The position numbers and the translations under genes are program-made. The notes beneath the pieces were generated by a model. The model did not search any database, was not told the origin of the DNA, and saw only the letters and a list, made by a program, of their open reading frames with translations. DNA of 33,619 nucleotides. It comes from Candidatus Hydrogenedens sp. (lineage in GTDB: Bacteria > Hydrogenedentota > Hydrogenedentia > Hydrogenedentales > CAITNO01). Below are positions 13,165 to 23,277 of this stretch, one piece after another. Where the stretch lies: the NCBI GenBank assembly GCA_012522755.1, contig JAAYJV010000012.1, positions 1-33,619 of the forward strand, in the 5' to 3' direction. The stretch's first letter is position 1. Each line of letters starts with the position of its first letter.

Positions 13165-13526
13165 GAAAATTCCTTTACTGTGAGTATGCCTTTTCAGATG
13201 GGTGCAACTCTATTTTACCAACGTTGGAGAAAGAGTCTGTGTAAACAGAGATAAGGTGGAATCTGATAGAACTTTTCAAAAAGTGCTCTTTGACTGTAAA
13301 CCGGCTCCACCTGTTTTTCGAATCGGTAAAAAAACGATCCTTTCAAATGAGAAGTTTTGAGTTTGTTTTTACTCAAAATCAATGTGAAAAATTGACAAGA
13401 ACTCACTTCTAAGGTATAGTTTATGTAATAATACCGGAAGTGTGCAGATAAAATCACATTGCCAGAAAGGTTTCAGTGGCCTGTCAGCGCCAGACACTCT
13501 TCAACGGCGTTAAGAGGAGAAAATAT
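13165..13526. other. Divergent regulatory interval
   Basis: No gene is evident. A perfect 10-bp palindrome CCAACGTTGG lies at 13218-13227, upstream of the small ORF on the minus strand, where an extended TGGTAAAAT -10-like sequence also lies. TTTTGAGT (13355-13362) and ACTCAAAA (13371-13378) form an inverted repeat directly upstream of the promoter at 13392-13420, a position suited to an operator or activator site. The rest is AT-rich, followed by a 5' untranslated region of about 100 bases. Confidence 0.5.
13392..13420 (+). promoter_or_regulatory. Sigma70-type promoter of the giant exported-protein operon
   Basis: TTGACA (13392-13397), 17 bases, TATAGT (13415-13420). Both hexamers and the spacing equal those at 556-584. 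Transcription would start near 13427, about 100 bases before ATG 13527. The 8-bp inverted repeat at 13355-13378 ends 13 bases upstream of the -35. Confidence 0.8.
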
Positions 13527-16500
13527 ATGCATCGAATTGCTTTGGTGCTGTTGATCACTATGATGACTCTGTCAATAGCGGCACAGGAGGGCTCAGACAA
13601 ATGCACTTTAATGGATTTGACTGTGCAGACTCCCATCACCCTGCCTGTACTGCCCCCTCTGGTGGAAGAAAGTCTCACCCTCACGCTGGCCGAGAATGAT
13701 GTTCCCACGCCGCAGGCCGTAATCAACCTGTGGGTCAAGGTTTTGAACAATGCACGGCAGCCCGATGAACGGCTGGAACTGTACTTTAATGGAACGCTGC
13801 TGGAAACCCGGGCAGCCGCTCAGTGGAGTTCCTGGGAGGGAGAACAATGGCATCTGTGGAGCCGACCCGTTCTTTCCCTGGGAGAGTCCGGGATCGTCGT
13901 GGAACTCAAAAGTTTTACACGCAGTGATGCCCCGGGCAATAAACCCTCTCTTATCCTCATCGGAGCCATGGAGGTGGCTGGAACTTCTCTTACAGGAGGT
14001 CCGACAGTCAGCAACAGTGTGGGCCGATGTGTTTACACCACTCCCGCCAACAGTGCCGGACTCTCCCTTCAGGGTGTGTATCCGGTCACAGCTGAAGATC
14101 TGGGCCCGGGTGAGACCGGCCAGAGATTAACGGCGCGATTGGGCGGCCTGGGTGCGCCACGTATTTCCGCTTCCATCCGTTTTGATGGCGGAGTCGCAGC
14201 CGATGAAGAGGAAGGGGAAGAGGAAGAAGAGGGGGAAGTGGAAGGCGAGGATACTCCTTCCGCACCCCTCAACGCTTATGTGCAGTTGCGTTATGGCGAC
14301 GAGGCGATCAATGGAAGAATCAATGCTTTGCTCATGCCGGAGCCCTTTATCGACGGCGTCAATGCTTTCAAAGTGGGGCAGGAGTGCTGGCGAGTTTACG
14401 ATTATATTCCTGAGCATCTCCATTCGATTCCTCTGCGGCCTGAAGTGCGTATATCCATCGACCCGAATTTTCCCCAGGCCTTTCTCATGGTGGATGATTT
14501 CACACTGACTTATGTGACGCCCCTTCTGGAGACCACGGATCCCGCCTGGATCGGTCGGGACAACCTCATTCCCAATGGAGACTTTGAGTCCGGCACCTAT
14601 CCTTTCATCATCGAATCGCCGGAAGGCAAAACCACCTGTCCCATGGTGTCTGATGTCATTAAAAAAGTAAGTGATGCCTGCAGAGGCGATTATGCCGCCG
14701 TCTTCAGGTTTCATGTTCCCGATGCATATATCGCCTATTGCGATGTGGAACGCATCATCGGAAAAAATCAGCGGGCAACCCTGGTGATAACAGGATTGAA
14801 TCTTGAGTCTATCAATTTTGTGGCACTGATCCCGGAATTTCTGGGAGCAACAGGACTTGCTGACGGTAATTATCTGCGCCTGCTGCCCGACAGCGCTCCC
14901 ACATTCACAGGGGATATGGAAGAGCTGCGTTTTTCCTTTTCTTTCAGTGGTCCCTTCAATGTGGCCTTCAACGGGGATACCATATGTACGGATGGACTCG
15001 CCAGCTATGAATGTGCTGTCAATGGTGAGTTCAAAGTGGGGATGCTCGATGCCTGCTCCACTCTTATTGACACGGTGCCGCCGGTACTGCGTATAGATTC
15101 CCCGGCCGGAGCCACCGATGCCAGTGCCGGTTCGCCGTCCGTCAGTGTGGTGAACCGTGTTCCAGCGAGTCCCGCCACGGATTTTCCGGGCAACTGGATT
15201 CTGAGTGCTGAGTCCCTCACCCCGAAAAACACGGCTTCTTACGCTGTGTCTGACATGCATGTATTTGTGAACCCGGGTTCCAGACAGGATGTCCCATTTT
15301 CTCTGGCTGATGGTGCTGACCCTGCTGTCTTGTCCATGAATGTTTCCGCTCGCTTTGTCGACTTGTCCCCTTCACTGGATGGTGTGATCTATCCGGTGAC
15401 CCTCTCCGGATTTTATGCGACAGAGGACAGAGCCGGCCGGCCAACTGAGTTTCCCGGTAACAGGCGTGGCACGGCAAGATGGAATACCTCAGCTTCTTCC
15501 GCCCTTGTGAACAGCTATACACAACATATGGCTTCAGCCATTGACATGACGGCCACGTGGAATGTCAGCATCCCCCGAAATACATCGGCGGATTATTGGG
15601 ACTATTCTTTCAAGCCGGAGGCTACGGACAGGGCGGGCAACTTTTCCGATACGTCCAGTCTCCATAATATTACAGTACATTGGTTGTATCGTACCCGTGC
15701 ACGTTTGACGGATCGGGAAGGTATACTCTCCGAACCGCCTGTCATGCCCTGGAAGCTGGACAGCCCGACCCTGCCCGAGACGGGAACCGCCTGTCGTCAA
15801 CTGGCTCGATTCCGTCTTTACACACTTGAGACCAATGGAAGCCTGTCGATCATAGCCTCTACCGAAGACTGGCTGGACGGACCCCTGCTGGGAAGTACCA
15901 TGATGAACAACGGCCGCTCTTTCATGAATACTGTACGGGATCATATGGGACTGGCTTTATGTCTTGATGTCATTGGTGCCGATGAAACCGGTAATGTCCA
16001 GTTTATTCCAGACAATTATGGCACCGGCATGTCACGGAGTCATCTCATCGGAGCGGAAGTGGATCATGTCATATGGGTCCCCGGTCAGGACAACAGAGCC
16101 ATCGACACGGATGTCTCACTGGAACTCTTCCATGAAAATATCAATCAGGATCAGATCATCAGAAGCTATGGGTCAGCCTTGCGTGTGCCCCTGCCTCCAT
16201 TGAGTCAGGCCTGTGTTGAGCGTGTGAACGGACTGGTTCGCTTCAAGAACATTGTTCCCACTTCAGGGCTGAGCCGGGCTCAGAGCGGACCCTGGATCTT
16301 GTGGAAATTTTACCGTAACGGTACCCTGGTCGCCACAGGACTGGCTGGTGAAGGTCAAGGATACCGGCTTCTGGAGAATCTTCTTTTATACGGTACGGAT
16401 ACGGATTCGAGTGTCACGGCTGCTGCTCTGAGTGCGCCCCTGGATAGTAATGATCTGACAGACGTGCCCTGGACACGAAGACTGGTTCGTCCGCGTTTCC

Positions 16501-16778
16501 TGGCCAAAGCACCCTCTGAATGTGTCGCAAAAGGTATTGTTGAAGAAAACACATATGACCGGCTCGGTGATGAGGGCGATCCTCCCGATCCTTTGAATCC
16601 CAATTTGCCTTCGCAGCGCCGAGACGAAGTTTTTTATACCCTTACGGCTCAGACTGTCTTTGTGGATGAAATCGGTTCTCTGATTATGGATCCCACCCCG
16701 GCCCGCGCCAGTTTTTCCATTTACCCGGAAGTTCGCAAGCGGATTGATACGCCTCCTGTACGTGAATTCAGCCGCTGA
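13527..16778 (+). CDS. Large secreted Ig-like protein with acidic insert
   Basis: A predicted exported protein of 1083 residues that I cannot place in one family. ATG 13527 is chosen because GAGGAGA precedes it and a Sec signal peptide (MHRIALVLLITMMTLSIAAQ) follows; the open frame upstream to a GTG at 13476 lacks these. The chain is mostly beta-strand-like. Residues 226-242 are an almost pure Glu/Gly run inserted between two ordinary segments. NLIPNGDFESG (about 346-356) resembles the start of a carbohydrate-binding jelly-roll. Around residue 515, VPPVLRIDSPAG opens an Ig-like section, with another near KPEATDRAGNFSDTS. There is no C-terminal hydrophobic anchor. The second giant gene follows after 79 bases, so the two are probably cotranscribed. 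Surface or extracellular location is inferred. Confidence 0.8.
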   Translation: MHRIALVLLITMMTLSIAAQEGSDKCTLMDLTVQTPITLPVLPPLVEESLTLTLAENDVPTPQAVINLWVKVLNNARQPDERLELYFNGTLLETRAAAQWSSWEGEQWHLWSRPVLSLGESGIVVELKSFTRSDAPGNKPSLILIGAMEVAGTSLTGGPTVSNSVGRCVYTTPANSAGLSLQGVYPVTAEDLGPGETGQRLTARLGGLGAPRISASIRFDGGVAADEEEGEEEEEGEVEGEDTPSAPLNAYVQLRYGDEAINGRINALLMPEPFIDGVNAFKVGQECWRVYDYIPEHLHSIPLRPEVRISIDPNFPQAFLMVDDFTLTYVTPLLETTDPAWIGRDNLIPNGDFESGTYPFIIESPEGKTTCPMVSDVIKKVSDACRGDYAAVFRFHVPDAYIAYCDVERIIGKNQRATLVITGLNLESINFVALIPEFLGATGLADGNYLRLLPDSAPTFTGDMEELRFSFSFSGPFNVAFNGDTICTDGLASYECAVNGEFKVGMLDACSTLIDTVPPVLRIDSPAGATDASAGSPSVSVVNRVPASPATDFPGNWILSAESLTPKNTASYAVSDMHVFVNPGSRQDVPFSLADGADPAVLSMNVSARFVDLSPSLDGVIYPVTLSGFYATEDRAGRPTEFPGNRRGTARWNTSASSALVNSYTQHMASAIDMTATWNVSIPRNTSADYWDYSFKPEATDRAGNFSDTSSLHNITVHWLYRTRARLTDREGILSEPPVMPWKLDSPTLPETGTACRQLARFRLYTLETNGSLSIIASTEDWLDGPLLGSTMMNNGRSFMNTVRDHMGLALCLDVIGADETGNVQFIPDNYGTGMSRSHLIGAEVDHVIWVPGQDNRAIDTDVSLELFHENINQDQIIRSYGSALRVPLPPLSQACVERVNGLVRFKNIVPTSGLSRAQSGPWILWKFYRNGTLVATGLAGEGQGYRLLENLLLYGTDTDSSVTAAALSAPLDSNDLTDVPWTRRLVRPRFLAKAPSECVAKGIVEENTYDRLGDEGDPPDPLNPNLPSQRRDEVFYTLTAQTVFVDEIGSLIMDPTPARASFSIYPEVRKRIDTPPVREFSR
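14202..14252 (+). repeat. Acidic Glu/Gly coding tract inside the first giant protein
   Basis: This stretch encodes 17 residues that are nearly all Glu and Gly, with DNA of GAA/GAG/GGG codons. It interrupts otherwise ordinary sequence (RFDGGVA before, PSAPLNAYVQLRYG after). It resembles the two tracts in the next gene. Confidence 0.8.
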
Positions 16779-16857: not shown

Positions 16858-19800
16858 ATGATGTTGCCAGAAAAGCGATGTTCCGTCTTTACCTTGAGTA
16901 TTTTCGTATTGGCGGCACTGAGTATGATTGTCGGGTCGCAAAGTGCCCTGGCCCAGATCAGCATGTTGCCCTGGCTTGAGGGCTGGGCGGCCAATGGACC
17001 TCTTCACGCCGTGGCGCCATCGGAAGATGCCGTATATTTGGGAGGAGCTTTCACCTATATCGGCCGAGAGACGGGAACCCTGGCGCAGGTGGATAGTGCC
17101 GGCGCTCTGGATGACGGGAAGTTTCCGCAAATAATCGGTACTGTCTATGCCACTGTCTCCGATGGAGCGGGCGGCTGGTATGTGGGTGGTGATTTTCTCT
17201 GGGTGGAGACTGTGGCCTGTGAGCGTCTCATTCATATAATGGACGATGGCAGTCTGGATCCGGACTGGACGCCGGAAGAGGGCATCGGGGTGAATGGCCC
17301 TGTTTATGCCCTGGCTCTTTCCGAAAACAGATCCACGCTCTTTATCGGAGGAGACTTTACCAGCATCAACGGCACAGCCCGGAGAAATCTGGCCGCTGTG
17401 AATACCGTTACCCGGGCTCTGCGCAGTTGGAATCCCCGGCCTGATGGTGCTGTTCGTGCTTTTGCCCAGTCTCATGACAAAAAGGAACTCTATACGGGGG
17501 GAAGTTTTAAGGAGATTGCCGGAAGGGAATGGCCTTATCTTGTTTCTTTTCATGCTGATCCCGAGGCATCCGATTTCGGAGAGCTTACTCCCTGGGATCC
17601 GGAAGCCAACGGGCATGTGGAAGCCCTGTGCTATGCCGAGGGCATCGCTGTCGATGTGGAAGATGAAGGAGAAGTGGCTGGCGAAGGAGAAGGGGAAGAG
17701 GAAGAGCCAGGGGAAGGCGAAGAGGAAGGCGAAGGAGAAGTTGTGCTTCCTGAAGAGCCGGAGGCGAATTATGTCCTTTATGTGGGTGGCTGGTTCAGCC
17801 AGATGGGAGAACGTTTCAGAAATCATCTTGCGGCGATCAATGCGGAAACAGCGGAGGTATTGAATTGGAATCCCGCTCCCAATAATCCTGTCTTCGCTCT
17901 TGATGTGGACGAGAAAGCCGTCTATGCCGCCGGTGCATTCACGCGTATCGGCCTCAGAAATTGTACTTTTGCGGCTGCTCTGGATCGCGCGTCGGGAGAT
18001 GTCTTTGAAGACTGGCAACTGGGGCGGGGAGATGAAAAACTCAATGACTGGGTGACAGCAGTGAAATGCGCACCCAATGAGCTTTCCCTTTATCTTGCCG
18101 GGCATTTCACCTGGTTGGGCAATGCGCAGCGAGCCCGTCTGGCAAGGGTGAATGCTGATTCAGGTACAGTGGGCACCTGGAATCCCGGTGCCGGTGACAT
18201 GAGTTATGTTCTCCAGCCTCATACGCAAGAGGGTGAAGAAAAGATTCAGGTCGCAGGAAAATCCACTGTCATGAATGGTGGGATCCGTCATCGCCTGGCT
18301 GCGTTCAATAAAGGCTCCTCTGATGATCCGGACTACAGTTTGAACGACTGGAATCCCCATGTCAACAATCCGGTCTATGGGCTGGCCTGCTCAGAAGGGG
18401 AAAAGATCATTTACGCCGGGGGACTTTTCGATAAAACAGGAAATAATGGAGACCAGGACGGTTATTCGGACAGCCGGACAGCACTGGCCGCCATTACGGC
18501 TGATTCCGTGTTCCTGCCCTTTGCGGATCTGACTTCAGAGATTGAAGAGGAACGTCCCCTTGTTCGTGCACTGGCTCTCAGCGACAGTTTGAGCATTCCG
18601 ACCCTTTATATAGGCGGGTCTTTTTCGACCTTGCAGGGGCTGGCACGGTCCGGGCTCGGAGCAGTGAACGCCTCTTACGCTGATTCAGCGTTCGGGAATG
18701 CCCTTTCCTGGGAGCCCGACCTTTTCGATACCTGTCATGCTCTGGATCTTTCCGAAGATGAGAGCCTGATATTCGCCGGAGGTGAAACAGACGATTTCAA
18801 AGGGATTCTGGCTGCTCTGGATACTGATGGCATGCCTGTCTGGGATTTTACGGCGGACTATGCAGTTCAAAGCCTGGAAGCCATTGAAGGGGATGTGCTC
18901 TATGTGGGCGGCAGTTTCACACAGTTGGAATCAGGCGGGAACATCTTCTCATATTTGCGTCTGGCGCGGATTGAGGATTCTCAAAGCGGTGTTCTGGATG
19001 AAGTCTGGCGTCCTGCGATAGTTGGTTCCGTATTGGCCCTGTGGGCCGGCAATGGAGACCAGCCTCTCTTCATAGGCGGCAATTTCACACAGGGCATTTC
19101 TTCCGAATCAGGAGAGAGCCACAGCCTGAATCACCTGGCCGCCATAAGTACACAGACCCAGCCGGTCGGTTATGGCGATTTTCTGGAGTGGCGGCCCAGT
19201 GTTGATGGGCCTGTTTACCTGCTGACGCCCGATATCGACAAGCCTTATTTCTTTGTCGGCGGTGTCTTCACGGCGCTGGGCCAGGAAAATGCCTTGTATC
19301 GTTCCATCAGCAGTCTCGCTCTCTTCGCTCACAATGATCTTGTCCCCCCCGAAATCACACTCATCGGAGAGGATCCTCAGGAAATAGAATGTGGCGATGA
19401 TTATATTGAAGCTGGTGCTTTGGCTACAGACAATTGGGACGGTAACCTGACGGAAGAACTGGTCATTGACAGTTCAGAAGTGAATACGGCTGAACCGGGC
19501 ACCTATACCGTTTATTACTCTGTTCAGGACGGTTCCGGTAATGAGGCGACAGCTGAGCGGACAGTGGAAGTTTCTGATAATTTGCCGCCGGTCATTGAGC
19601 TCGTTGGTGATCCGGAGATGGTTCTCGAATGCAATATGGATGTTTATGAGGAATTTGGAGCGCGGGCCTTTGATTATTGTGAAGGTGCCTTGAATCATCA
19701 TCTCGAAGGCACGGTGGATACAACGCAGCCGGGAAGCTATATGCTGACTTATGAGGCTGTGGACAGTAGCGGTAATGAAGCCGATCCGGTGGTGCGTCTG

Positions 19801-22800
19801 GTTCATGTCATCGACAGTATGCCTCCTGTCTTCTCAGAAACAGAATTGCCCTATGTCACCGTGGAACTGGGCCATCCCTATGACGATGAGATTCCTGAAG
19901 CCTTTGACATGTGCCAGGGTCTTGTTCCCGTTGACAGTGATGCCGATACAGCAGTCCGAATCGATGAAAAAGGACAGTATATCGTTACCTACAGCGCCGA
20001 TGATGGCGAGAATCAGGCTGAAATAACCCGGACGGTCTACGTGGTGGATCCCGAGAAACCCTATGTCCTTTCTCTGGAAGTGCTTTCTCCCTCCAGTATC
20101 CTCGTGACTTTCAACAAGCCCATGAGTGCCCGCGCGTCCATGGTGAATTACTACAGCTTGAGCGGTTCCGGTCTGGGTACACTCACAGCACGCCCCCATA
20201 GAGTCGTGCCCGATGCGGCTGACCCTGCAAGCTATCTGCTTGAATGGAACAGTCCCGCCGAAATGTATAATGGTGGTGCCCTCAGACTGACAGTGAATAA
20301 AATGGTTACTGATGCGGACGACAACGCACTGGAAGACCCGAATTTTGCATTGGGTACAGGCATGGGCATCAAACCGGTCATTACCATTCTGGGCGACAAC
20401 CCGGAATATTTCCAGTGTGCCGGCGACTATGAGGATGCGGGAGCCACGGCTTTTGACGATCCTGATGGTGTTGTAGAGGTTACCGTGGAAGGTCTGGAAG
20501 CCTTTTCAGAGCCTGAAGCGGGCATCTTTGAAATCACCTATCGTGCTCAGGATCTTGCAGGCAACGTCGGTACTGCAACACGGATCGTTGAGGTGCAGGA
20601 TGACCAGGAACCGGTGATCACACTTGTGGGCGACAGTCCGGCCATTGTGGAATGCGGTTACAGCTATGTGGATCCGGGTGTCTCGGCTTATGATGTTTGT
20701 GACGGAGATCTGACGGATTCCATTGTAACCACCTTTTACACGGAAGAGGGTATTGAGGTTGAAGAAATCGATACGCAAAGCGCTGGAATTTTCCTGATTT
20801 TCTACCAGGTGAGCGATAAAGTCGGTAATGAAGCTGTCCCGGTGATTCGGGAAGTGGAAGTGGTGGATACAAACACACCGCTCTTCCTGTGGATCGGCTC
20901 TTCTTTTGAGGAAGAACTTCCTGTGGAAGATGGTTTTTATGTACTTGAGTGTTCCGAAGCCTTTGTGGAGCCCGTGGACTTTACCGCTGCGGATCTCTGT
21001 GATGGCTATCTGGAAGGGCCCGTGTCCCATCTGGAGCCCGGTGAAGCCGGTGTGCTCGCTTTTGCTTGGGCGCTGGACGCAGACAAGAAACCCCTCTACG
21101 GAGAGACAGATCCGCTTGTCTATCCCTATGACACTTTCATCAGCCATCCCGGTGATTACCTGCTCTGTTATGTGGCTTATGACGCTTCGGGCAACACCTA
21201 TCCCGCTGTGGATGACGATGGAATGCCCGAACTGAGTTATCCGCTGTTCCTGGATGAAAACCTGGAAGCGCTTGTGGTGGATTATGCACGGCTCGTACGT
21301 GTTGTTGATACACGCTTGCCCGTTATTGAACTGAACAGCAACGCCTGGATGCAATGGGAATGCACCCTTCCCTTTGTTGATCCTGTCACCGCCTTTGATG
21401 ACTGCGCCGGTGATCTGACAGCCTATATCGTGATAACAGGCTCCGTCAATACGGGAGAACTGGGAGTACACGCGCTCAGCTATTCAGTATCGGACTTTGA
21501 AGGCAATGCGGCCTTGCCTCAACAACGGCAGGTTGAAGTGGTGGATACAATAGCTCCGGTAATTTCACTGAATACAGATGAGTTCATGGTCATTGAATGC
21601 AGCAGTGATTTTATTGACCCTGTCACCGCCTTTGATGACTGTACCGGTGATCTGACGGCGCATATAGTGACAACAGGCTTTGTCAATACGGGCGTTCTGG
21701 ACAGCTATGTACTGACTTATAATGTGTCGGACAGCAGCGGAAATGCCGCTGAAACCGTAACAAGAACAGTGACAGTGGAAGATACGGAAAAGCCTGTCCT
21801 CTCCGGTCCCGATGAGTTCCTGTTGGAATGCGGTAGCCCATTCGATCCGATGATGGTCGGTGTGACCGCCTTTGACGATTGCGCCGGTGATCTGACCCCG
21901 GACATGGAAGTCACGGGTACTGTGCTGACCCATGAGCCGGGCATCTATACCCTCGAATATACTGTGAGCGACCCGACCGGTAATGCGGCGGATCCTCACG
22001 TCCTTACCGTGGAGGTGAGAGACAGCATTCGACCTGTTCTCGACTTGAACGGCCCGTCTTCTGTCGAGGTGGAATGTGGCGACGACTGGGATGACCCGGT
22101 CACCGCCTTTGACAGCTGTGCCGGAGACCTGACCGCTGAGATTGTTACAACGCCTCCGGTGAACACGGAAGCAACAGGTACCTTCACTGTGACCTACACG
22201 GTATCTGATCCTTCCGGAAACGAAGCTGAATCCCTCACCCGAACAATCATCGTGGAAGATACGATGTCTCCCGAGATTCATCTCGGTGTTGATTTCCCCA
22301 ATTCAGTGACAGTGGTGGATGGATTTGTCAAATGGCTGCACGGCCAGCCCTTTGATGAGCCTGATGACTTTAATATTCATGATGCCTGTGAAGGCGATCT
22401 GTCGCCGGTTCATCCCCAGTTGCCGCCCATGACCACTGAAGCTGTCATCGGCTATGCCTGGGCTTTGGATCCCGTGACAAAAGAGCCCTTGTGGAACACG
22501 CCTCAGATTGATCCGCTCTGGTTTGATCTGGATGACTTCGTCAACCATGAAGGCTATTATCTGATGATTTATGAAGCCCGCGACAGTGTCGGCAATCACA
22601 CTCCCGTAATGGGTACAGGTGGTTTTGTTCCCATCTTTGATGATGACTTCAATCCGAATTTCCTTGATGAAGACGGTGAGCTCCGCTCGGAATTGAGCTT
22701 TGCACGACTTGTCTGGGTCTCTTCAGCCAAGACAGGCGGATTGCCCTTCAAGTTCGCTCAATTTGTGGTCGATACTTTCGGAGCCTGGGATCGCAACGGA

Positions 22801-23277
22801 GATGGGATCCTGGATGATGATGAGCAGAAGAAGGTTGTGGATGCATTCATCGGTGAAAATCAGGAGATTGATGAAGAGGAGCTCTTGCAAATCCTGAGGG
22901 ATATTCAGAAGGACGAAGAATTGTCTCTCGCCCTCCTGAAGGAATTCCTGAAAGACGACAAGCCTTCTGAAGGTGAAGAACTGATCGAAGGTGAAGTTGT
23001 TCCTGAAGGCGAAGCAACCCTTGAAGGGGAAGCAGCCCTCGAAGGCGAAGTTATTGCTGAAGGCGAAGCAACCCTCGAAGGCGAAGCCCAGCCCGGTGAA
23101 GGTGAACTCCAGCCTGATGAAGGTGAATTCCAGCCTGATGAAGGTGAAGATGCCGCTGTGGGCTGCTGTCGCACCTCGAAGAAAAGCCTGAGCGATGTCT
23201 TTGGTGACTTGTTGCTTCTGGGTCTCAGCCTCATGGTGCTGCTGACCGTGGCCGGAGGAAAAAGGCGAGACCGTTAA
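16858..23277 (+). CDS. Giant surface protein: propeller, Ig-like array, EF-hand, acidic stalk, C-terminal anchor
   Basis: A predicted exported and surface-anchored protein of 2139 residues. Order: signal peptide (1-33, ending SALAQ); about 14 delta-60-type (DUF5122-like) propeller blades marked by Y.GG.F (about 60-800), with an acidic insert at 268-303; three DUF5011-like Ig domains from about 831; a Big_5/SbsA-like Ig domain (VLSPSSILVTFNKPMSA); about eight more DUF5011-like domains to about 1955, two of an expanded type; an EF-hand loop DRNGDGILDDDE (about 1978-1989); EGE repeats (2038-2097); then GCC (2102-2104), a hydrophobic segment and KRRDR at the end. That tail resembles Cys-type CTERM sorting signals. 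AAGGAGAA precedes the ATG. Its function is probably adhesion or ligand binding, which is inference. Confidence 0.88.
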   Translation: MMLPEKRCSVFTLSIFVLAALSMIVGSQSALAQISMLPWLEGWAANGPLHAVAPSEDAVYLGGAFTYIGRETGTLAQVDSAGALDDGKFPQIIGTVYATVSDGAGGWYVGGDFLWVETVACERLIHIMDDGSLDPDWTPEEGIGVNGPVYALALSENRSTLFIGGDFTSINGTARRNLAAVNTVTRALRSWNPRPDGAVRAFAQSHDKKELYTGGSFKEIAGREWPYLVSFHADPEASDFGELTPWDPEANGHVEALCYAEGIAVDVEDEGEVAGEGEGEEEEPGEGEEEGEGEVVLPEEPEANYVLYVGGWFSQMGERFRNHLAAINAETAEVLNWNPAPNNPVFALDVDEKAVYAAGAFTRIGLRNCTFAAALDRASGDVFEDWQLGRGDEKLNDWVTAVKCAPNELSLYLAGHFTWLGNAQRARLARVNADSGTVGTWNPGAGDMSYVLQPHTQEGEEKIQVAGKSTVMNGGIRHRLAAFNKGSSDDPDYSLNDWNPHVNNPVYGLACSEGEKIIYAGGLFDKTGNNGDQDGYSDSRTALAAITADSVFLPFADLTSEIEEERPLVRALALSDSLSIPTLYIGGSFSTLQGLARSGLGAVNASYADSAFGNALSWEPDLFDTCHALDLSEDESLIFAGGETDDFKGILAALDTDGMPVWDFTADYAVQSLEAIEGDVLYVGGSFTQLESGGNIFSYLRLARIEDSQSGVLDEVWRPAIVGSVLALWAGNGDQPLFIGGNFTQGISSESGESHSLNHLAAISTQTQPVGYGDFLEWRPSVDGPVYLLTPDIDKPYFFVGGVFTALGQENALYRSISSLALFAHNDLVPPEITLIGEDPQEIECGDDYIEAGALATDNWDGNLTEELVIDSSEVNTAEPGTYTVYYSVQDGSGNEATAERTVEVSDNLPPVIELVGDPEMVLECNMDVYEEFGARAFDYCEGALNHHLEGTVDTTQPGSYMLTYEAVDSSGNEADPVVRLVHVIDSMPPVFSETELPYVTVELGHPYDDEIPEAFDMCQGLVPVDSDADTAVRIDEKGQYIVTYSADDGENQAEITRTVYVVDPEKPYVLSLEVLSPSSILVTFNKPMSARASMVNYYSLSGSGLGTLTARPHRVVPDAADPASYLLEWNSPAEMYNGGALRLTVNKMVTDADDNALEDPNFALGTGMGIKPVITILGDNPEYFQCAGDYEDAGATAFDDPDGVVEVTVEGLEAFSEPEAGIFEITYRAQDLAGNVGTATRIVEVQDDQEPVITLVGDSPAIVECGYSYVDPGVSAYDVCDGDLTDSIVTTFYTEEGIEVEEIDTQSAGIFLIFYQVSDKVGNEAVPVIREVEVVDTNTPLFLWIGSSFEEELPVEDGFYVLECSEAFVEPVDFTAADLCDGYLEGPVSHLEPGEAGVLAFAWALDADKKPLYGETDPLVYPYDTFISHPGDYLLCYVAYDASGNTYPAVDDDGMPELSYPLFLDENLEALVVDYARLVRVVDTRLPVIELNSNAWMQWECTLPFVDPVTAFDDCAGDLTAYIVITGSVNTGELGVHALSYSVSDFEGNAALPQQRQVEVVDTIAPVISLNTDEFMVIECSSDFIDPVTAFDDCTGDLTAHIVTTGFVNTGVLDSYVLTYNVSDSSGNAAETVTRTVTVEDTEKPVLSGPDEFLLECGSPFDPMMVGVTAFDDCAGDLTPDMEVTGTVLTHEPGIYTLEYTVSDPTGNAADPHVLTVEVRDSIRPVLDLNGPSSVEVECGDDWDDPVTAFDSCAGDLTAEIVTTPPVNTEATGTFTVTYTVSDPSGNEAESLTRTIIVEDTMSPEIHLGVDFPNSVTVVDGFVKWLHGQPFDEPDDFNIHDACEGDLSPVHPQLPPMTTEAVIGYAWALDPVTKEPLWNTPQIDPLWFDLDDFVNHEGYYLMIYEARDSVGNHTPVMGTGGFVPIFDDDFNPNFLDEDGELRSELSFARLVWVSSAKTGGLPFKFAQFVVDTFGAWDRNGDGILDDDEQKKVVDAFIGENQEIDEEELLQILRDIQKDEELSLALLKEFLKDDKPSEGEELIEGEVVPEGEATLEGEAALEGEVIAEGEATLEGEAQPGEGELQPDEGEFQPDEGEDAAVGCCRTSKKSLSDVFGDLLLLGLSLMVLLTVAGGKRRDR
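17659..17766 (+). repeat. Acidic Glu/Gly tract inside the propeller region
   Basis: Encodes residues 268-303, dominated by GEGEGEEEE-type sequence, between the strand ALCYAEG and the next blade strand YVLYVGGWF. The DNA is purine-rich GAAGGCGAAG-type sequence prone to slippage, so its length could vary between strains. Confidence 0.85.
22969..23148 (+). repeat. Hexapeptide EGE stalk repeat before the C-terminal anchor
   Basis: Encodes about ten degenerate repeats of six to eight residues beginning EGE: EGEVVP, EGEATL, EGEAAL, EGEVIA, EGEATL, then two copies of a seven-residue unit QPDEGE plus one. At DNA level CTGAAGGCGAAGCAACCCT recurs 54 bases apart (from 23003 and 23057), three repeat units. 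The composition suggests an extended, acidic, possibly calcium-binding stalk. Confidence 0.88.

Follow-up and report, generated by a model that had tools for sequence, protein, structure and literature searches.

The contig JAAYJV010000012.1 of Candidatus Hydrogenedens sp. (positions 1 to 33,619, forward strand; this whole stretch of 33,619 nucleotides is called the window) encodes a very large protein with a Sec signal peptide at one end and a Cys-containing, hydrophobic and basic tail at the other. This locus raises the question whether the tail is a sorting signal and, if so, which enzyme acts on it. Our answer to the first part, to which we assign a probability of about 0.75, is that the tail is a dedicated, processed C-terminal sorting signal for secreted surface proteins of many Hydrogenedentota. 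The signal is real, modular and, as far as tested, restricted to this lineage; judging by known families with such a layout, it likely directs processing of the proteins that carry it.

The tail and its recurrence in the source genome

The original prediction described the end of the protein as an EF-hand, a stalk of EGE repeats, GCC, a hydrophobic stretch and KRRDR, and in the open reading frame 16858-23277 the layout reads exactly so: DRNGDGILDDDE (EF-hand), EGE repeats, AAVGCCRTSKKSLSDVFGDLLLLGLSLMVLLTVAGGKRRDR and stop. The following features were read off the sequence:

16858-23277, plus strand: open reading frame of the tail-bearing, putative secreted surface protein, 2139 amino acids
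16858-16956, plus strand: Sec signal peptide MMLPEKRCSVFTLSIFVLAALSMIVGSQSALAQ
22789-22824, plus strand: EF-hand calcium-binding loop DRNGDGILDDDE
22969-23148, plus strand: EGE stalk, acidic Glu-Gly-Glu repeats
23161-23169, plus strand: GCC signature with the Cys that is invariant in tail profiles A2 to A4
ending at 23208, plus strand: RTSKKSLSDVFGD (LSDVFGD), between GCC and the hydrophobic stretch
23200-23208, plus strand: FGD opening the membrane segment, with the invariant Asp (family consensus LGD; spacing from the last Cys to Asp 13 here)
23209-23259, plus strand: hydrophobic segment LLLLGLSLMVLLTVAGG
23260-23274, plus strand: basic C-terminal end KRRDR
23275-23277, plus strand: stop codon

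The EF-hand is not next to the Cys, it lies about 110 residues upstream. The N-terminal part of the protein consists of propeller-like repeats with a weak match to Rax2/DUF5122 (Pfam), which are followed by nine Bact_surface_Ig-like domains (PF16403, nine stretches, E 2.8e-117).

The source genome is 95% complete and consists of 199 contigs; it was surveyed by searches plus sampled stretches. With the last 52 residues as query, eight further proteins of the same layout were found at weak E-values. Profile A1, built from these nine own-genome tails, recovered five tails that had not been used for it (E = 3e-12, 2e-6, 1e-5, 8e-5 and 0.013), all of them at the extreme C-terminus. Thus at least 14 proteins of this genome carry the tail, which is not unique to one protein, as the original prediction had anticipated. 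The bodies of the tail proteins belong to unrelated Pfam families (Ig-like, right-handed beta-helix/PMP repeats, PASTA, DUF11/DUF7507, RHS with Peptidase C39, TIG), and the own-genome tail proteins that were inspected have Sec-type N-termini. Three tail proteins with PMP/beta-helix-type repeats, probably paralogues, are encoded in tandem on one 15-kb contig (C192; locus L213). On contig C190 (1468-1545; locus L108) the tail stops after LSDWLEWNFWLW and has no basic end, possibly because it is a degenerate or frameshifted copy.

Spread, conservation and known relatives

Profile A4, built from 43 tails, was searched at E <= 0.01 against 68 Hydrogenedentota genomes. Tails were found in 37 of these, with a maximum of 35 copies in one genome, so the expectation that related genomes would carry families of such tails was borne out. 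All 17 genomes of the source genome's own family were positive, as were 4/4 in family f5 and 6/7 in family f7, whereas in family f11 a tail was found in 2 of 25 genomes, with a single weak match in each. The same profile found no tail in 26 of 26 genomes of other phyla, a small outside sample for which the searches within the phylum serve as positive control. When the profile-poor genomes were searched for the EGE pattern, one exosortase-like tail of the VPALTP type and a few Cys tails that have diverged were obtained. The orthologue of the window's protein in ADurb.Bin170, 48% identical across the body, ends with the same tail, VGCCRSTESRAYDVRQLFGDWLLLGLSVMALLLLAGVGRGKS.

Conservation was studied on 40 further matches from other genomes, which had not been picked for the profile (the profile does, however, contain the tail of one of them, the ADurb.Bin170 orthologue). 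In all 40 the tail ends 0-8 residues before the stop codon. All 43 profile rows and all 40 further tails have the upstream Cys, and 37 of the latter have at least two; the Asp at the membrane start is likewise found in 40/40, preceded by 'LG' in 30, and the spacing from the last Cys to the Asp is 12-19 residues. At least one K or R stands among the last ten residues of every further tail (40/40), while an EF-hand or dockerin-like motif ahead of the tail and an EGE stalk were each found in 17 of the 40. It must be noted that the profile itself selects in part for the conserved Cys and Asp, but it has no influence on the C-terminal position. The further tails scored 34-49 bits, compared to 9.3 bits for the best match in control DNA (a sample of the own genome, an f11 genome and other phyla, read forward and reversed, about 1.7 million translated residues in all). 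Because these scores are so far apart, and because A1 recovered own-genome tails that had not been used to build it, we do not regard the tail as a product of chance.

Two arrangements seen during the survey should be mentioned. In the relative G034 two consecutive tail genes (L128:1-3058) each have a dockerin-like EF-hand motif ahead of the tail. A 'GCAP' variant (GCAP....GD), perhaps a second tail subtype, occurs at L030:57-4769 (minus strand), L033:7017-9800 (minus strand) and L249.

When the 43 tails were compared with NCBIfam (18,950 models) and Pfam, no significant match to a sorting signal was obtained; the best matches were strays of one to three tails to the VPDSG-, VPLPA-, JDVT-, Heimdall- and MYXO-CTERM models (E 0.0015 to 0.6). 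Among the papers searched, none names both Hydrogenedent- and CTERM. We therefore regard the tail as a signal that has no name so far but is of a known kind, namely a Cys-containing tripartite sorting signal with a MYXO-CTERM-like layout, for which we use the working name Cys-LGD tail.

The closest parallel is MYXO-CTERM (TIGR03901; myxosortases MrtX, MrtC and MrtP), whose cleavage by a CPBP protease depends on the Cys (PMC11980579). Common to the two signals are the tripartite layout, a hydrophobic helix with an Arg/Lys end placed at the very C-terminus, and the invariant Cys in a GC(G)C-type motif, which stands about 15 residues ahead of the membrane helix, as in the TraA tail (PMC11980579). 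In both cases a genome has many unrelated secreted proteins with the signal; for MYXO-CTERM in M. xanthus their number is 35 (PMC11980579). They differ in that the Hydrogenedentota tail, found in a different phylum, has an additional invariant LGD where the helix starts, and in that TIGR03901 matches only 1 of the 43 tails (E 0.21, 12 bits against a cut-off of 20). MrtX, MrtC and MrtP had no match above cut-off in the source genome.

The original prediction had placed the tail nearer to MYXO-CTERM and Synerg-CTERM than to PEP-CTERM or LPXTG. For MYXO-CTERM this holds by virtue of the common layout of invariant Cys, membrane segment and basic end. Synerg-CTERM is also a Cys-containing signal, but its model matches none of the 43 tails; that of JDVT-CTERM matches one (E 0.066). 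The processing enzymes of these two signals, MrtS and MrtJ, are CPBP proteases, and it is to them that a CPBP protease of the source genome, described below, scores best, although far under their cut-offs and with its gene not beside a target gene. PEP-CTERM (EpsH-type exosortase), GlyGly-CTERM (rhombosortase) and LPXTG (sortase) are tripartite as well, but the tails have no PEP motif and no GlyGly/Ser-rich motif, LPXTG occurs in none of the tails read, and neither PEP-CTERM nor LPXTG gave a match. IPTL-CTERM, the signal of exosortase H (XrtH), has 'LSEWG', to which the 'LSDW' of some Hydrogenedentota tails is similar; the start of the helix resembles L-[SAG]-[DE]-W, and the source genome has an XrtH-like enzyme. 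In contrast to IPTL-CTERM, the tails have no IPTL/Pro motif and have an invariant Cys, the enzyme is under the XrtH cut-off, and the model matches just 2/43 tails (E 0.62 or worse).

Candidate sorting enzymes

Gene content was compared between 24 tail-bearing and 14 tail-less high-quality genomes. No positive association between an enzyme and the tail reached statistical significance, and genomes that are related do not count as independent. The leading candidate, which we propose tentatively and could easily be wrong about, is a single-copy, Mrt-like CPBP protease (L011:1390-2085, minus strand; PF02517 45.6 bits, cut-off 22.4). It is one of three CPBP genes (PF02517) in the source genome and the only one that resembles myxosortases: it matched MrtJ with E 2e-5 (25.1 bits, cut-off 75), MrtS with E 3e-5 (24 bits, cut-off 130) and Mrt_core with E 9e-4 (19.2 bits, cut-off 100). 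Matches to MrtJ below the cut-off were also seen in 29 of 30 orthologues (best 9e-10), besides such matches to MrtS and Mrt_core, and the catalytic Rce1-type residues EExxxR, FxxxH and the distal His are invariant in all 30. The gene is present in 24/24 tail-bearing genomes, and G027, which has 11 tails, has a single CPBP match. The other two own-genome CPBPs (L012, L013) were rejected, neither having an Mrt match and L013 having QQ in place of the catalytic EE.

It is possible, if rather doubtful in our opinion, that the same signal is served by a divergent XrtH-like exosortase (L211:3093-4004, minus strand), a transpeptidase that would work where the LGD marks the membrane boundary; the Cys may then serve some further purpose, for example lipidation or the formation of a disulphide. 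The protein scores 53.3 bits with the exosortase/archaeosortase superfamily model TIGR04178 (cut-off 23) and is closest to XrtH (77.4, cut-off 86). Its gene is single copy and is present in 22 of the 24 tail-bearing genomes. An XrtH match was found in 16/16 orthologues, and the Cys-Arg-His triad (C211, R252, H273) is invariant. It was, on the other hand, not found in the tail-bearing G017 (14 tails) or G035 (23 tails, 60 contigs). The source genome has no full-length EpsH exosortase, and in about 588 kb of its DNA we saw no other recurring tripartite tail, hence without these tails the XrtH-like enzyme would have no substrates in sight. In G031 the XrtH-like gene has a tail gene upstream on the same strand, which ends about 600 bases before it; this is weak support, because by a rough estimate about 0.2 such neighbours are expected by chance over 30 loci. 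The arrangement was not seen in the other neighbourhoods checked. The poor fit of the IPTL-CTERM model to the tails also speaks against this enzyme. We favour the CPBP protease because of the invariant Cys and the precedent of MYXO-CTERM.

The XrtH-like gene has an N-terminal extension and is accompanied by a gene for a membrane protein (L211:2521-4004, minus strand), an arrangement conserved across Hydrogenedentota; the membrane protein weakly resembles an XrtH-associated protein (E 0.38).

Several points weigh against a dedicated processing system built around the CPBP protease. No NCBIfam Mrt model reaches its cut-off with L011. The CPBP gene is also present in 12 of the 14 tail-less genomes and the XrtH-like gene in 11 of them, which counts against the latter enzyme as well; of the dedicated sorting enzyme that the original prediction called for, there remain two single-copy candidates, which are found together with the tail but have also been retained by most genomes of the phylum that lack it. 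The CPBP gene belongs to an operon conserved phylum-wide, which encodes two GNAT acetyltransferases, the Rce1-like CPBP, a NatA-like ABC ATPase and a permease (L139-L168; L212 in the source genome). Since this operon is found in the tail-less f11 too, the CPBP protein may have another job. Finally, we infer cleavage and Cys lipidation, as well as the surface location of the tail proteins, from the sequences. No tail gene was found beside the CPBP gene among 31 loci scanned, and a PDB sequence search with the CPBP profile gave no match.

Two other enzymes were rejected. EpsH exosortase is anti-associated with the tail, being full-length in 9/24 tail-bearing as opposed to 12/14 tail-less genomes (Fisher p 0.006), and is missing from the source genome. 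Rhomboid is found in nearly all genomes regardless of the tail, yet it is missing from the tail-bearing G017. A tail-less f11 genome has a classical PEP-type tail, VPEPATVTLLGAGLVGIAVRRR; a PEP-CTERM-type tail, VPEPATVTLLGAGLVGIAVRRRFFRNR, is encoded in the f11 genome G046 (L341:7982-8767, minus strand), a member of the tail-less family with full-length EpsH exosortase. This suggests that sorting systems were swapped within the phylum.

Proposed mechanism and alternatives

If the tail is a processed signal, its proteins would be exported through Sec by means of the N-terminal signal peptide. The C-terminal hydrophobic segment would then come to a stop in the inner membrane, so oriented that the basic end stays on the inside while the GC(x)C motif and the LGD boundary are exposed on the outer side of that membrane. 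A membrane-embedded sorting protease would recognize the hydrophobic segment and cut it off. The protein could stay attached, most plausibly by lipidation of the invariant Cys, which is what has been proposed for MYXO-CTERM, and be delivered to the cell surface, where the flexible EGE stalk or the calcium-binding EF-hand region may keep the domain body off the membrane.

Another explanation would be that the tail does no more than anchor the protein in the membrane by its C-terminus, that insertion and helix packing account for its conservation, and that it undergoes no dedicated cleavage. For stop-transfer anchoring, a C-terminal helix that ends in positive charge is enough, and no enzyme separates tail-bearing from tail-less genomes. 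However, a plain anchor requires neither that unrelated proteins share an invariant Cys and Asp with an almost constant spacing, nor a sharp restriction to some families of one phylum; we consider this explanation improbable. That the tails are alike through paralogy or convergent hydrophobicity we practically dismiss: the three proteins of C192 are probably related by descent, but the bodies of the tail proteins fall in unrelated families and control DNA did not exceed 9.3 bits.

A processed Cys-LGD tail would represent a further Cys-type system in some families of one uncultured phylum, and its enzyme could, as a tentative proposal, belong to a new branch of CPBP myxosortases with the gene in an ABC-transporter operon; more surprisingly, it could be an exosortase that works on a Cys signal. 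This second option, if true, would join lipidation-type and transpeptidation-type pathways in one system. The tail adds to the known signals a Cys-type one that has an invariant Asp of its own where the membrane begins, together with two concrete candidate enzymes, so that a further lineage becomes available for testing what lipidates and cuts signals of the Cys type. It also offers a sequence handle on the cell-surface proteins of Hydrogenedentota, which are known almost entirely from metagenome-assembled genomes, and a curated tail model could annotate many 'hypothetical' giant proteins.

As to the surroundings of the tail gene in the window, the closest relatives of a neighbouring HldE-like gene are nearly all from metagenome-assembled genomes of Candidatus Hydrogenedentota, the nearest (86% identity) being that of ADurb.Bin170. 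Upstream, positions 13476-16778 (plus strand) encode a secreted protein of 1100 amino acids, which has no Pfam match, no C-terminal tail, and an EGE-type acidic linker in the middle. It ends 79 bases ahead of the tail protein on the same strand, and is a possible operon partner.

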